Below, in pieces: positions 3,921 through 9,651 of a stretch of DNA of 10,124 nucleotides; position 1 is the first letter of the stretch; the number at the start of each line of letters is the position of its first letter. This DNA comes from Asaia bogorensis (GTDB lineage Bacteria > Pseudomonadota > Alphaproteobacteria > Acetobacterales > Acetobacteraceae): positions 1 to 10,124 of the forward strand of contig CAMCHA010000046.1 in the NCBI GenBank assembly GCA_945874515.1, in the 5' to 3' direction. The position numbers and the translations under genes were made by a program. The notes under the pieces were generated by a model. It worked only from the letters and a program-made list of their open reading frames with translations, was not told the origin of the DNA and did not search any database.

Positions 3921-4778
3921 ATGTCTGCCCATCGCATTGCCTTCCAGGGCGTACTCGGCGCCTATTCTGATCTTGCCTGCCGCGCGGCCTATCCGGGGTC
4001 TGACACACTGCCCTGCCCTTCCTTCGAAGCGGCCATGGCGGCGCTGCGCGATGGGCAATGCGATTTGGCCATGCTGCCTTGCGAAAACTCCTTGGCCGGT
4101 CGCGTGCCCGATATTCACCGCATGCTGCCCGATTCCGGGCTTTTCGTGGTGGGCGAGCATTTCCAGCGCGTTGAACATTGCCTGCTGGCCCCAAAGGGCG
4201 CGAGCCTGGCCACCTTGAAGCGCGCCCATAGCCACCCGGTTGCCTTGGGCCAGGTGCTGCGGCTGTTGAAGGACATGAACCTGACCCCGGTGATTGAAGC
4301 CGACACGGCCGGCGCGGCAGCGCTGATTGCCGAACGGGGCGGCGTGGAAGATGCCGCCATTGCCAGCGAACTGGCCGCTGAAATCTATGGCTTGGAAGTG
4401 CTGAAGCGGAATGTGGAAGATGAAGCGCATAACACCACGCGCTTTTATGTGATGTCCCGCGATAGGGCCGATGCGCCCTTGGATGCGCCCAATGTGGTGA
4501 CGACCTTTGTCTTTCAGGTGCGTTCCATCCCGGCGGCGCTTTACAAGGCGCTTGGGGGCTTTGCCACCAATGGGATCAATATGACCAAGCTGGAAAGCTA
4601 TATGGTCGGCGGGCGCTTCTCCGCGACGCAATTCCTGTGCGATGTGGATGGACACCCGGAACAGCCGGGGCTTCGCCGTGCCTTTGAGGAGTTGGCCTTT
4701 TTCTCCTCCTCCATGAAAATCCTGGGCGCCTATCGGGCGCATCCCTATCGGCTGGAACAATCAAGCCCAGCGGAATGA
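3921..4778 (+). CDS. pheA: Prephenate dehydratase
   Basis: Monofunctional PheA of 285 residues, converting prephenate to phenylpyruvate in phenylalanine synthesis; no chorismate mutase domain is fused. The catalytic PDT domain spans residues ~4-182, with FQGVLGAYSDLA at the start, PCENSLAGRV, and the conserved Thr-Arg-Phe of NTTRFYVM at its end. An ACT regulatory domain follows (~195-272), with PAALYKALGGFATNGINM and then TKLES, the region that binds phenylalanine for feedback inhibition in this family. ATG 3921 has GAAGGAAAAA just upstream. The last 135 bases exist again at 7431-7565 as a stranded remnant. The gene itself is intact. Confidence 0.95.
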   Translation: MSAHRIAFQGVLGAYSDLACRAAYPGSDTLPCPSFEAAMAALRDGQCDLAMLPCENSLAGRVPDIHRMLPDSGLFVVGEHFQRVEHCLLAPKGASLATLKRAHSHPVALGQVLRLLKDMNLTPVIEADTAGAAALIAERGGVEDAAIASELAAEIYGLEVLKRNVEDEAHNTTRFYVMSRDRADAPLDAPNVVTTFVFQVRSIPAALYKALGGFATNGINMTKLESYMVGGRFSATQFLCDVDGHPEQPGLRRAFEELAFFSSSMKILGAYRAHPYRLEQSSPAE

Positions 4779-4919
4779 GGGGGGATGCGAGAGAGCCCTT
4801 CCCCTCAAGGGGTTGGTCAGGCTAGAAGTGAGTCGAAGGACCCGTAGCTCAGCTGGATAGAGCGTTGCCCTCCGAAGGCAAAGGCCGAAGGTTCGAATCC
4901 TTTCGGGTCCGCCAATTTT
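4644..4919 (+). repeat. Left copy of the pheA-end / tRNA-Arg direct repeat
   Basis: About 276 bases: the last 45 codons of pheA, the 59-base spacer, the whole tRNA-Arg and five further bases (atttt). The right copy is 7431-7705. The tRNA part is identical; the pheA part differs at 12 sense positions plus the stop codon (TGA against TAG); the spacer has a few changes and a one-base length difference. Similarity begins abruptly at GTGGATGG and ends just after the tRNA. Confidence 0.9.
4838..4914 (+). tRNA. tRNA-Arg (anticodon CCG), left copy
   Basis: Complete 77-base cloverleaf. Acceptor stem GGACCCG/CGGGTCC, D arm GCTC...GAGC, anticodon stem TTGCC/GGCAA with loop CTCCGAA placing anticodon CCG at 4872-4874, T arm GAAGG-TTCGAAT-CCTTT, discriminator G and encoded CCA. 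Reads the arginine codon CGG. Sits 59 bases after pheA. Its 3' end marks the left edge of the defence island, the usual place for tRNA-targeting integrative elements. Confidence 0.96.
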
Positions 4920-5213
4920 CCTTCATAGGTATCTGGTTTGGCTGATAATTTTGGGACATTGGCTCGCGTCGTCCCCACAATCCTCCCCACACATCGCTAC
5001 CTGTGGGGAAAGGCCGCCGGAAGATCGCACCGCAGACGTGGCAAAACCGCCACAGTGCGGGCCACGCCCCTGCCGCGCCGAGCAACCTTGCAAGGCTGTC
5101 TAAGCGCCCTGTCCAAGCCGATCCGTTTGGCCGGTTCCCGCGATTGCAGGACCACCCCATGTAAGGGGCGCGCCTTTAGGCGTTCTGCCATAGACTGCTG
5201 CTAACGAATCGGT
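4920..5213. other. Gene-free left end of the island, with TGTGGGGA repeats
   Basis: No convincing gene. The first 90 bases hold TCCCCACA at 4972-4979 and 4984-4991 (same direction, 12-base period) and its inverse TGTGGGGA at 5002-5009, with TTGGGACA at 4951-4958 as a weaker relative. Copies two and three can pair as an 8-bp stem with a 10-base loop. Such short repeats beside a tRNA 3' end resemble arm-type binding sites of tyrosine recombinases. Further right are small hairpins (CCCC-ATGTAA-GGGG and CGCC-TTTA-GGCG) of unknown meaning. The methylase promoter must lie here, but I cannot pick one out. Confidence 0.5.
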
Positions 5214-6281
5214 ATGAGCTTGATGAACCACCTGCGTCCCCGCCGCTACCACAAGACGAAACACGGTCGCCTCATCCACGGGGACAGCCTCGCCTACATG
5301 CGCAGACTGCGGGCCGAGAGTGTGAACCTCATCATGACCAGTCCGCCTTTTGGCTTGGTTCGGGAAAAGGACTACGGCAACGTCGCCGCAGATGATTACC
5401 TGGAATGGTTCACGCCCTTCGCCGAGCAGTTCAAGCGCATCCTCAAGCCGAACGGCAGTCTCATAATCGACATCGGCGGCGCTTGGGAGAAGGGGCAGCC
5501 GACGCGCAGCCTCTACCACTTTGAGCTTGCGATCATGCTGCGCCGGAAGTTCGGGCTGCACCTCGCGCAAGAGTTCTATTGGTGGAACCCGTCCAAGCTG
5601 CCCACCCCTGCCGAATGGGTGACGGTGCGCCGCGTGCGCGCGAAGGATGCCGTCAACACGGTATGGTGGTTCTCGCCGACGCCATGGCCCAAGGCGAGCA
5701 ACAAACGCGTCATCCTGCCATATAGCGGCGCCATGGAGACGCTGTTGACGAACGGCTACACGCCGAAAAAGCGGCCGTCTGGTCACGATATCAGCGACAA
5801 GTTCCAAAAGCACAATGGCGGAGCAATCCCACCGAACCTCATCGCCATCCCGAACACTGAGAGCAACAGCGCATATCAGCGTTATTGCCAGGAACACGGG
5901 ATCACCAAGCACCCCGCGCGCTTCCCGGCCGCCCTGCCGGAGTTCTTCGTCAGGATGCTAACCGATGAAGGCGACTTGGTGATTGACCCCTTCGGCGGCA
6001 GTTGCGTAACGGGCGAGGTGTGCGAACGGCTCGGCCGCAGATGGGCGTGCATAGAGCTTGATGAGCAATACCTAGAAGGTGCGATGGTGCGCTTCCGCGA
6101 ACGCTCAAACCGCCCGCCTGTGCCGCCTGACGCGCGCTATGCGCTCCCGCATCCCGGCGCGCTCTGGAATGGCGCGGACCACGACCGTTTGCACCCTGAC
6201 GGCGGCTTGAACCATCGGGGCAGAACGGCGGCCGAGAAGGTGAAGGCTGCCGGAAACGCTGCTGCACCAGAGAAACTGTAG
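5214..6281 (+). CDS. M.PvuII-like N4-cytosine DNA methyltransferase
   Basis: Modification enzyme of a restriction-modification pair, 355 residues, beta-class order. Motif IV TSPPFGL at residues 42-48 (SPPF favours N4-cytosine methylation), motif X-like HPARFP at 233-238, and AdoMet-binding motif I DPFGGSCVTG at 258-267. Long blocks match what I recall of M.PvuII: FYWWNPSKLP, KDAVNTVWWFSPT, TPKKRPSGHDIS, GGAIPPNL and LPEFFVRMLT. M.PvuII modifies CAGCTG at the inner cytosine, so that is the first specificity to test, but target recognition cannot be read from the sequence. The last ~60 residues form a Pro/Gly-rich tail beyond the catalytic core. ATG 5214 has no clear Shine-Dalgarno; ATG 5223 is possible. 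The nuclease gene follows after five bases. Confidence 0.93.
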   Translation: MSLMNHLRPRRYHKTKHGRLIHGDSLAYMRRLRAESVNLIMTSPPFGLVREKDYGNVAADDYLEWFTPFAEQFKRILKPNGSLIIDIGGAWEKGQPTRSLYHFELAIMLRRKFGLHLAQEFYWWNPSKLPTPAEWVTVRRVRAKDAVNTVWWFSPTPWPKASNKRVILPYSGAMETLLTNGYTPKKRPSGHDISDKFQKHNGGAIPPNLIAIPNTESNSAYQRYCQEHGITKHPARFPAALPEFFVRMLTDEGDLVIDPFGGSCVTGEVCERLGRRWACIELDEQYLEGAMVRFRERSNRPPVPPDARYALPHPGALWNGADHDRLHPDGGLNHRGRTAAEKVKAAGNAAAPEKL

Positions 6282-6286
6282 GCCCA

Positions 6287-7291
6287 ATGGCGCGACTTCC
6301 GAAAAAAGAATTAATCCGTCGTTTTGAGTTGGCAATTCAAGATGCCGGCGCGCGCCTTATCTATCGTTCGGCCACTTCAACGCAGCCAGTGAGCTACACG
6401 ATTATTTATCGCGATGGCCGATCTTCCCGTGTCCTAGTCTATATCCGCAATGTTACTCCTGGCGGCAACAATCGCCCGACTTGGGAATATCGCATCCAGC
6501 CTACCAAGCTGACGCATTTCGAGACTCGGCCAGACGAGAGTACCCTTATTCTGGGTTGGAGTGAAGACTTCGAGGTTTTTGCTGGTTGGGACTATCGTCG
6601 CCACTCAGGACCGCTTGGAAAGTCATCGTCGTTTCAAATATCGGATGGTGCCCTTCGAAGTGCGCAGACGCGCGGTTTCGCCCCATACGTCAAGGGCACG
6701 GGAGAGACTGCTATCGCTTTCCGTGCCGACCTAGCCGCGGCCTATGTCGAACACCTTATCGCTCTCCACGACACAGGCGGGGTGCCGGCGGAGGCCGCGA
6801 TCCTGGAAAAAATCAGCGAAGACCCCGCCGCCGTTCCCGATGCCGAGATTGACGCAGCCGTTGCGCCAGCCCGCCGCGTGGAGATCGTGGAGACGCGCCG
6901 CGCTGCACGCGATGCGCAGTTCCGTCGGAAGGTGCTGCGCGCCTATGAAAACCGCTGCGCGGTGTGCGGCGTGCAGCTTCGCCTTCTGGACGCAGCGCAC
7001 GTGTTGCCGGTTGACCAGCCGGGCAGCACCGATGACACGAACAATGGCGTTGCCCTCTGCGCCCTGCATCATCGCGCCTATGATCGCGCGCTCATCGCCT
7101 TCGATCCGACCTACGCCATCCAAGTGAACAAGAAGCAGGTTGACGAACTCACGTCGCTGTCTCTCGCGGGAGGGCTGCGCCAGTTTCAGGCCGGGTTGAA
7201 GCCGAGCCTCATCCTGCCTGCCGATCCGCGCGACTATCCAAGACAGGAGTTCATCGCAGCGGCGAACAAGGCCCGCGGCTGGTGCGCATGA
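6287..7291 (+). CDS. HNH restriction endonuclease partner of the methyltransferase
   Basis: 334 residues in two parts. The C-terminal HNH domain (~212-272) has the zinc pair CAVC (C224, C227), catalytic-type DAAHVLP (H238), TNNGVALC (N252/N253, C258) and HH at 261-262, the order of the HNH_2 group in which two Cys pairs hold a structural zinc. The N-terminal ~160 residues (YRDGRSSRVLVYIRNVTPGG, later LILGWSEDFEVFAGWD) are a separate domain, probably for site recognition. I recall such a domain beside methylases (methylase-associated X1), but this is from memory. It is unrelated in appearance to R.PvuII, a short PD-(D/E)XK-type enzyme. The early part is noticeably AT-richer than its neighbours, a sign of transfer. 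Cleavage activity is inferred from the motif and from pairing with the methylase. Confidence 0.85.
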   Translation: MARLPKKELIRRFELAIQDAGARLIYRSATSTQPVSYTIIYRDGRSSRVLVYIRNVTPGGNNRPTWEYRIQPTKLTHFETRPDESTLILGWSEDFEVFAGWDYRRHSGPLGKSSSFQISDGALRSAQTRGFAPYVKGTGETAIAFRADLAAAYVEHLIALHDTGGVPAEAAILEKISEDPAAVPDAEIDAAVAPARRVEIVETRRAARDAQFRRKVLRAYENRCAVCGVQLRLLDAAHVLPVDQPGSTDDTNNGVALCALHHRAYDRALIAFDPTYAIQVNKKQVDELTSLSLAGGLRQFQAGLKPSLILPADPRDYPRQEFIAAANKARGWCA

Positions 7292-7503
7292 TCCAGGACA
7301 TAAAAACCGACCTTCCCGATGCCGAGGTGCTGCTTTTGCTCGCGCCTCAGGAACTGGCGCGCGTACTGCTTCCGATCTTCAAGCGACATCGCGGCGAAAT
7401 CCACCTCTTCAACCTTGTCAATCACCTTCAGTGGATGGCCATCCGGAACAGCCTGGGCTGCGCCGCGCCTTTGAGGATCTGGCCTTTTTCTCCTCCTCCA
7501 TGA
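7288..7503 (+). pseudogene. Truncated third gene of the island (possible TIGR02391/Ymh-like N-terminus)
   Basis: ATG 7288 overlaps the nuclease TGA (ATGA), the pattern of translational coupling, so this was a third cistron of the same operon. About 47 native codons remain, including LPDAEVLLLLAPQELARVLL and FKRHRGEIHLFNLVNHL, an amphipathic helical start resembling TIGR02391 (Ymh) proteins. From 7431 the frame enters the pheA remnant out of phase and continues with junk (WMAIRNSLGCAAPLR...) to a stop at 7503. The gene is therefore broken by the right-hand repeat boundary. Family assignment is tentative; its reality as a coding start is better supported. Confidence 0.55.
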
Positions 7504-7565
7504 AAATCCTGGGGGCTTATCGGGCGCATCCCTATCGGCTGGAACAATCAAGCGCGGCTGAATAG
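7431..7565 (+). pseudogene. Stranded 3' end of pheA (ACT-domain C-terminus)
   Basis: Forty-four codons and a TAG stop matching residues 242-285 of the intact pheA upstream. It has no start and no 5' part. Against the intact copy, eleven codons differ: nine are synonymous, and two change the protein (Glu to Asp, Pro to Ala). Ends in SSAAE where the intact gene has SSPAE. The frame remains clean, so it has either arrived or been cut off recently. Confidence 0.93.
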
Positions 7566-7623
7566 GGGAGTGGCGAGAGAGCCCTTCCCCTTAAGGGGTT
7601 GGTCAGGCTAGGAGCCAGGAGAA

Positions 7624-7700
7624 GGACCCGTAGCTCAGCTGGATAGAGCGTTGCCCTCCGAAGGCAAAGGCCGAAGGTTCGAATCCTTTCGGGTCCGCCA
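7624..7700 (+). tRNA. tRNA-Arg (anticodon CCG), right copy
   Basis: Identical over all 77 bases to the copy at 4838-4914, anticodon CCG at 7658-7660, CCA encoded. It has its own upstream segment, including the conserved palindrome CCCCTTAAGGGG at 7587-7598, so it may be expressed. Beyond the five bases after CCA the flanks of the two tRNAs are unrelated. Confidence 0.96.
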
Positions 7701-7756
7701 ATTTTTCAATAGGCCAGCAGCTCGGCGCTTCGTGCCGCACGCTGTCTCGCGATCCC

Positions 7757-7966
7757 TCAGCGACACCCAAGCCAATTCAGGTAACGCGCGCAAACGGCCT
7801 TCTCAAAGCCTGACCACGCTTGCACAAAGCCAGCACGGGACTGCATGGCGGCGCGGTATGCCGCGCGCAAGGCGCGCTTCGCCGCATCAAGATCAACGCC
7901 GACAAGCTCGCCGTTTTGCACCAGGGTGCTGCCCGCCACCATCAGTTCCCACACATTGGAACAGTT
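7757..7966 (-). pseudogene. C-terminal remnant of a probable amidohydrolase
   Basis: About 70 codons on the minus strand ending in TGA at 7757-7759. NCSNVWELMVAGSTLVQNG followed by ELVGVDLDAAKRAL looks like the end of cytosine-deaminase/chlorohydrolase-type amidohydrolases, where a 'V..V.V.G..V..dG.v..vD' strand pair is followed by a helical tail (here AAYRAAMQSRAGF to ARYLNWLGCR). The 5' part is missing: at about 7966 the sequence changes into the antisense of the pcaG remnant. An ATG at 8002 opens the frame formally but lies in that unrelated DNA. Enzyme subtype cannot be named. Confidence 0.45.
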
Positions 7967-7967
7967 G

Positions 7968-8201
7968 CCGTATATCCTTGTTTGGATTGTCGCGCGCGGC
8001 ATTAATCTTGGCCTCTTGACGCGGCTTTACTTCGAGGGCGAGGTGGAACCTAATGTGGAGAGACCGGTTCTGCGCCTGGTCGAACAGCCCGAACGGCGCA
8101 AGATCTTGATTGCACGACGCGTGCGAGGCGTAGGGGCAAACACCTACGTCTTCAATATTAACTTTTAGGGCGCGGAGGAAACAGGTTTCTTCGAGGTCTG
8201 A
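7968..8201 (+). pseudogene. pcaG: 3' remnant of protocatechuate 3,4-dioxygenase alpha subunit, with an internal stop
   Basis: The frame reads VWIVARGINLGLLTRLYFEG then VLRLVEQPERRKILIARR, the C-terminal part of PcaG, a subunit of the enzyme that opens the protocatechuate ring between the two hydroxyls. The frame meets TAG at 8166-8168, yet reading on gives GAEETGFFEV and TGA at 8199-8201. PcaG proteins end in a similar '...QGE.ETVFFDI', so the TAG most likely replaced a Gln codon (CAG). The first ~125 residues, including the paired beta gene, are missing. The intact binding-protein gene starts 31 bases later, so the two were probably once in one operon. Confidence 0.75.
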
Positions 8202-9229: not shown

Positions 9230-9641
9230 ATGCTGAAGACTGAGCAGCCTGCTTCGCCCCCTTACATGTCGGGCTTCGGCAATTCCTTCGAGACGGAGGC
9301 ATTGCCCGATGCCCTGCCGGTTGCGCGCAATTCACCGCAGAAATGCAATTATGGGCTTTATGCCGAACAGCTTTCCGGTTCGGCCTTCACCGCGCCGCAT
9401 GGCAAGAATGAACGTTCTTGGCTGTATCGTATTCGCCCAACGGTCAAGCATTCCGGCCGCTATCGCCCGATGGATCCCGGAACTAAAGCCGGTGAAACTA
9501 ACCGGCACCATGGCTTTCATGTTCGAAACGCGCTTCCCGCAAAGGGTCACGGCTCATGCAGCGAAGCTGCCGAGCTTGCAGAAAAACTATATCGGCTGCT
9601 GGGATGGTCTGCCGAAACGCTTCAACCCGAAAAAGAAATAG
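9230..9641 (+). pseudogene. hmgA: Homogentisate 1,2-dioxygenase with a large internal deletion
   Basis: Two ends of HmgA joined out of frame. From ATG 9230 about 83 residues match the N-terminus ([56 protein letters not shown]). Near 9477 the homology jumps by +1 into the extreme C-terminus ([31 protein letters not shown]) ending with TAG at 9641. HmgA is about 430 residues and opens the homogentisate ring in tyrosine breakdown, so roughly 290 central codons, including the Fe-binding region, are gone. The reading frame from the start runs on only through unrelated codons to 9655. It follows the binding protein by 19 bases. Confidence 0.88.
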
Positions 9642-9651
9642 GCTTGGTGAG

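Follow-up and report, generated by a model that had tools for sequence, protein, structure and literature searches.

We describe a pair of restriction-modification (RM) genes in a 10,124-nucleotide stretch of Asaia bogorensis DNA, the whole of which (contig C46) is referred to here as the window. The two genes, encoding a PvuII-like DNA methylase and an HNH nuclease-like protein, lie between direct repeats that each contain the end of pheA and a complete gene for tRNA-Arg(CCG). The RM unit is probably, though far from certainly, the stranded cargo of a broken tRNA element, with the duplication being a scar left by one-sided recombination with the DNA of a relative. An integrative element would have entered the tRNA-Arg(CCG) gene behind pheA at its 3' end, carrying the RM pair as its tRNA-proximal cargo. 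The half of the element with the integrase, along with its far attachment site, would subsequently have been lost through one-sided recombination with the island-free pheA-tRNA DNA of a close relative. On one side the partners would have paired by homology, either on the upstream side along pheA or in the flank downstream. The other joint, at 7430/7431, would have formed with little or no homology, linking a point within a third cargo gene of one partner to a point within the pheA allele of the other. The outcome would be that pheA stays intact and the RM pair is stranded, with a complete tRNA following a second tail of pheA. The basis for this reading is an element end whose terminal array is found at the left only, a third gene that is cut, a pheA tail that evolved as functional pheA, and the exchange of slot contents in the elements of relatives.

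The repeat pair is real, and chance is excluded as its source. The whole 276-bp repeat was found to be 92% identical between its two copies (E 4.4e-111), with 90% identity for 4644-4781/7431-7568 and 94% for 4778-4919/7564-7705. The longest identical run is 85 bp (4835-4919/7621-7705), and the rest of the genome holds a single further repeat match of 61 bp at 75%. A first-pass annotation of the window had described repeats holding the end of pheA and a whole tRNA-Arg, an intact pheA, and a methylase-nuclease unit between them, and the alignments, ARAGORN, and Pfam bear out this description (Table 1). It had also stated that single copies of pheA and the tRNA would remain after the repeats recombined, which agrees with the sequence. 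The 85 identical base pairs could still allow the island to be lost through homologous recombination. Self-driven mobility of the island is unlikely, and no means of self-excision was seen.

The leader that separates the left tRNA from the methylase gene recurs in five other genomes (G102, G093, G148, G018, and G033) at 71-78% DNA identity, and in three of these it stands directly after a tRNA-Ser gene. A search of 397 genomes of the family returned five matches outside the window at E 1e-4, of which only those in G102, G093, and G148 extend over at least 70 bases; the matches in G343 and G347 were weak and were not used. In G102 and G093 the leader directly follows tRNA-Ser(GCT), and in G148 it is preceded merely by a stretch resembling a tRNA 3' end. 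Within the genus, the leader was found at 77% identity over 157 bp in G018, where ARAGORN located no tRNA next to it, and at 78% over 226 bp in G033, behind tRNA-Ser(CGA). An 18-base motif of the leader is present in 3 of 35 genomes of the genus (the window's own, G018, and G033) and in 5 of 397 of the family (its own, G102, G093, G148, and G177). The reversed motif had no match in either set, and the motif itself had none in viral_contigs. G177, which was found through this motif, has a similar array with no tRNA found and was not used.

Both ends of the elements in G102, G093, and G018 carry a terminal array consisting of two copies of TCCCCACA, 12 bp apart, and one of TGTGGGGA. The window holds this array once, within the leader directly behind the 3' end of the left tRNA, and contains no further exact TCCCCACA. 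The three array motifs appeared together in 0 of 2000 shuffled leaders. From their place and arrangement, the motifs are putative integrase arm sites. No integrase or primase gene was found between the repeats of the window, and no integrase of the element type was found at E 1e-40 in the window's genome, which is 78.8% complete. The far border, with a second array and a partial tRNA end, is not in the window, where the right tRNA is complete. Because the integrase and primase genes are missing, the window would represent a remnant of such an element rather than a complete member of the family.

The elements of G102, G093, and G018 are 12-14 kb in length and have an integrase, a phage-type primase, arrays at both ends, and differing RM cargo beside the leader (L074, L075, and L076 are the loci in G102, G093, and G148, respectively). 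A partial tRNA-Ser end is repeated 11.8 kb downstream in G102 and 13.2 kb downstream in G093, beside the second terminal array. In G102 the integrase (Arm-DNA-bind_3, Phage_int_M, Phage_integrase) lies at the far end, and the primase has Prim-Pol and D5_N domains. This integrase-primase part is matched at 91% by G093 and at 73% by G018, the integrase of which shows 71% protein identity. The slot behind the leader is unlike between G102 and G093, though their DNA aligns on either side of it. It holds a C5 methylase and a NotI relative (PDB 3bvq, E 2.3e-89) in G102, and a C5 methylase-BsuBI/PstI fusion in G093; the same fusion occurs in G148 at 90% DNA identity, and a search for it in viral_contigs gave 24 loci. 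The 14-kb element of G018 (contig C5, about 65470-79400; loci L130 and L131) has a type I methylase-like gene in the slot.

The integrase has many relatives in the genus, with 16 of 35 genomes containing one at E 1e-40; G018 was followed in full, and three further contigs were inspected for the motif and a tRNA. A PHROGs search with eight element proteins returned primase and integrase families only and no packaging gene. The primase and the size of the elements, by themselves, suggest a satellite life style. Comparison with these elements also bears on the notion that the right pheA tail and tRNA are the element's own far attachment site, the element taking the end of a gene and an entire tRNA with it. 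The complete tRNA at either end of the island would fit, as would a complete second tRNA in G014, but at the far border of G102 and G093 a partial tRNA end adjoins a second array, and the right repeat has no terminal array. We therefore regard this possibility as very improbable.

At the right end of the island, a third gene that overlaps the HNH stop codon is 86% identical to a gene of G031 until position 7430, after which the sequence is that of pheA. The full-length G031 counterpart is located at the same tRNA and belongs to Hypoth_Ymh (PF09509, E 4.1e-23). With the G031 gene standing in for the uncut gene of this strain, only a few bases, counted by eye, are shared at the 7430/7431 joint, as at a homology-free junction. 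Twelve codons distinguish the right pheA tail from the left. Sense codons account for 12 base changes, 10 of them synonymous, and two residues are changed; in addition, one stop codon is swapped for another. The probability of two or fewer nonsynonymous changes under neutrality is 8e-5. Because the changes are mostly synonymous, the right tail diverged within a working pheA. Taken with the spacer, it is nearest to the left tail of the window and to G008 (23 of 193 sites each), followed by G027 (26 of 190), and its difference from G008 exceeds the 6.8% of the neighborhood (Poisson P 0.008). The right repeat and the flank behind it are continuous, like the empty sites of G005 and G024, and positions 7431-7970 form one continuous match at 80% in L039 and L040.

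Table 1. Coordinates of the features at the pheA-tRNA-Arg locus of the window.
Feature	Position	Strand	Evidence
pheA, intact prephenate dehydratase (PDT), 285 aa	3921..4778	+	PF00800 (PDT domain), E 8.6e-51
Left repeat: final 135 pheA bases with stop, spacer, whole tRNA-Arg, 5 bases	4644..4919	+	
Left tRNA-Arg(CCG), complete	4838..4914	+	ARAGORN
Leader, one end of integrative-element family	4920..5213	+	related DNA in G102, G093, G148, G018, G033
Terminal array, putative integrase arm sites	4972..5009	not assigned	TCCCCACA at 4972 and 4984, TGTGGGGA at 5002
DNA methylase, M.PvuII-like, N6_N4_Mtase	5214..6281	+	PF01555, E 1.1e-38
MTaX1 and HNH nuclease-like protein, 334 aa	6287..7291	+	PF20296, E 1.1e-26; PF13391 (HNH_2), E 1.3e-12
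Hypoth_Ymh gene, 5' piece, cut at 7430	7288..7430	+	86% identity to start of full-length G031 gene
Right repeat: diverged pheA tail, spacer, whole tRNA-Arg	7431..7705	+	
Right tRNA-Arg(CCG), complete	7624..7700	+	ARAGORN
Flank, piece of minus-strand gene	7706..7970	-	directly behind tRNA in G005 and G024

A tandem duplication within the lineage, in which the pheA tail, the tRNA, and their neighbor were copied, the copy decayed, and the downstream part was replaced, would account for a right tail whose distance from the left tail (23 of 193 sites) roughly equals that from its nearest relative (likewise 23, for G008). A non-functional tail, however, is not expected to keep its changes nearly all synonymous, and the flank behind the right tail matches the empty sites of other species; such a duplication is improbable. 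An assembly chimera of two metagenome strains also seems improbable. The assembly is fragmented (2.59 Mb in 404 contigs) and relatives of several species occur, which speaks for a chimera, but the overlaps between contigs C46 and C174 and between C174 and C259 are exactly 149 identical bases each. Because two neighboring pairs share this overlap, an assembly word of 149 is suggested, and since this exceeds the 85-bp identical run, the sequence is unlikely to have been misjoined at the tRNA. The joint at 7430/7431 has almost no homology with which to mislead an assembler, and C174 carries on from the window in the gene order of the relatives. An assembly artifact, which the first-pass annotation had named as a way for its proposal to fail, is thus an unlikely source of the repeat.

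The pheA and tRNA sequences were used to search 34 relatives of the same genus. The match spans pheA to the tRNA in 18 of the 34 (in G022 across two contigs) and ends near the end of pheA in the other 16; the best pheA relatives that carry names are mostly Roseomonas sp. metagenome-assembled genomes. Upstream of the tRNA, all 18 are collinear with the window as far as their contigs reach, and downstream they are variable. Both empty and differently filled sites were found. G005 and G024 have the empty-site arrangement, the tRNA being followed by a homologue of 7706-7970, over which these species are ~80% identical; only the end of this minus-strand gene is in the window, and it has ~477 codons in G005 and G024. 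A DUF2783-like gene follows the tRNA in G019, G026, G034, and G007 (judged by eye, with Pfam run on the G014 copy alone), a gene matching the window from 9683 on in G027, the Hypoth_Ymh gene and an Abi_C/AbiJ gene in G031, and a 145-aa gene in G008 and G017. The G018 element holds an evident homologue, by eye, of this 145-aa gene. By eye, G029 has an apparent integrase start, in a frame that has no Pfam match, and G002 a broken form of it. Different DNA is located behind the tRNA in G012, G022, G023, and G025. In G014 (L042:14055-15382), two complete tRNA-Arg(CCG) genes enclose one 347-aa gene with no Pfam or PADLOC match, and the second tRNA gene begins immediately after its stop codon; G033 has a relative of this gene without a second tRNA.

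The T-stem of tRNA-Arg(CCG) in the window and the 18 relatives occurs in two main matched forms, cgaag/ctttc and cgtac/gtatc, and once as cgcac/gtgtc. These forms may possibly have arisen by integrated elements replacing the 3' half of the tRNA.

The main rival is a small cassette bounded by the repeats that moves as a unit: a circle of pheA tail, tRNA, and RM genes would enter by a Campbell-type crossover or at the tRNA, and could leave again. It would produce the map as observed, with complete repeats sharing 85 identical bases, and the single gene between two complete tRNA-Arg copies in G014 is in keeping with it. Against it, the right repeat interrupts the third gene, and no second pheA tail was found among the matches listed (to E ~5e-6) in the 34 relatives; a candidate in G022 was rejected, as its two contigs share 118 identical bases and represent a contig overlap. 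Relatives of the HNH protein were found in 1 of 35 genomes of the genus (the window's own), in 2 of 397 of the family and 2 of 385 in a search of the class, its own included in each, and at one distant locus in genome_contigs; there were none in viral_contigs. Because the gene is so rare, there is no sign of a cassette circulating at the pheA-tRNA locus, and because its relatives are so sparse, the donor is not traceable through this protein. We consider the moving cassette possible but rather unlikely. The first-pass annotation had proposed an exchangeable defense cassette with the repeats as its borders. The RM unit does stand at a variable tRNA-Arg locus, and RM cargo is swapped in the element family; the repeats as borders are not supported, given that the array stands at the left end alone, that the third gene is truncated, and that those matches include no second tail.

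Several observations weigh against the stranding of cargo from a broken element. A Campbell-type circle yields an identical map, and none of the complete elements of the G102/G093/G018 family that were seen occupies tRNA-Arg(CCG) itself. Among the 18 relatives with a pheA-linked tRNA, no leader resembles that of the window convincingly; the best are those of G022, equaled by 2 of 300 shuffles, and G031, equaled by 5 of 300, which is unconvincing given 18 tests. A 23-bp similarity of the sequences that precede the methylase gene and the Ymh gene of G031 was also considered and set aside as weak (E 0.064). When the comparison is limited to the 135 bases from pheA, G022 and G014 come closest to the right tail, at 12 differences each against 14 for the left tail, G008, and G027; it is only the spacer that groups the right tail with the latter three. 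Compared directly with the left tail, it shows no significant excess of divergence (Fisher P 0.083). To the left of the island and in C174 alike, identity to G008 is even, with no crossover or switch point visible, and an intact donor allele for the right tail was not found.

The methylase aligns with the PvuII-type modification methylase (PDB 1boo) over 286 residues (E 1.4e-101), and motifs expected of a type II methylase are in place (TSPPF at residue 42 and DPFGGS at 258). Its partner differs from that of the PvuII-type enzyme in being an MTaX1-HNH protein. The HNH motif residues of this protein are kept, its score against the nearest NCBIfam family is 76 bits, below the cutoff of 180, and its resemblance to 6yex and TagI is weak. 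An HNH-type gene also adjoins a methylase in G208, a Roseivivax plasmid, and a Thiothrix plasmid. The two proteins of the window would likely be a functioning defense pair. Among plasmids, 122 records match, five of them covering at least 80% of the query and all at <60% identity; 331 phage records have the methylase, all likewise at <60% identity. By eye, P0002 and P0003 are near-identical to the 6287-7291 protein in the HNH half and far more divergent in the MTaX1 half, as if the two halves had recombined. A literature search of a limited collection returned nothing on Roseomonas tRNA genomic islands with restriction-modification, or on 'methylase-associated X1'.

P4-like satellites and P2-like phages have antiviral hotspots with a 1-5 kb slot and a high turnover of defense genes (Rousset et al. 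2022, PMC9122126). The elements of the relatives similarly have a small, high-turnover slot inside an integrated element, together with a D5-type primase and a tyrosine integrase. In contrast, the slot here stands beside the tRNA-side leader, that end alone is retained in the window, and PHROGs gave no packaging gene. Cis-mobilizable elements and tandem islands at tRNA or ssrA sites hold cargo without integration genes and keep both attachment sites (PMC3146451). The window resembles them in that an attachment-site gene holds such cargo, but it lacks a far attachment site, has its array at the left only, and has a right repeat that extends into a protein gene. Tycheposons (PMC10872708) are alike in layout, with a tRNA gene at the border, a tyrosine recombinase, and cargo; the window has no recombinase, and the relatives' elements are 12-14 kb with a phage-type primase.

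Homology-facilitated illegitimate recombination is reported for three naturally competent species, and at low efficiency in conjugation of E. coli (PMC3240628); it has been proposed for the immunity-gene arrays of V. cholerae with leftover tails (PMC5361080). The window would share with this process a homology anchor on one side, a homology-free joint on the other, and the remaining tail of a displaced gene, but here the process is deduced from its product. As a tentative and rather doubtful generalization, defense cargo at tRNA hotspots of this genus may be swapped via the conserved neighbor pheA by one-sided homology, without an integrase, so that ends of elements would become cassettes with a spare tRNA, of which G014 would be a second case.

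If the broken element is the correct explanation, an odd repeat is tied to a family of tRNA elements whose ends are recognizable by an 18-base motif. The tRNA-side slot would swap whole restriction systems, including those with a PvuII-like methylase, NotI-like, BsuBI/PstI-like, and type I systems. The window would also illustrate how cargo becomes stranded, with a truncated third gene and a pheA tail of mostly synonymous divergence as the marks of the event. A long pair of direct repeats need not, therefore, be the borders of a mobile unit.

Further downstream, positions 9263-9642 resemble, by reading, a putative homogentisate dioxygenase gene with an internal deletion. Approximately 0.9 kb of G023 (L052) is absent from the window at 9480/9486.

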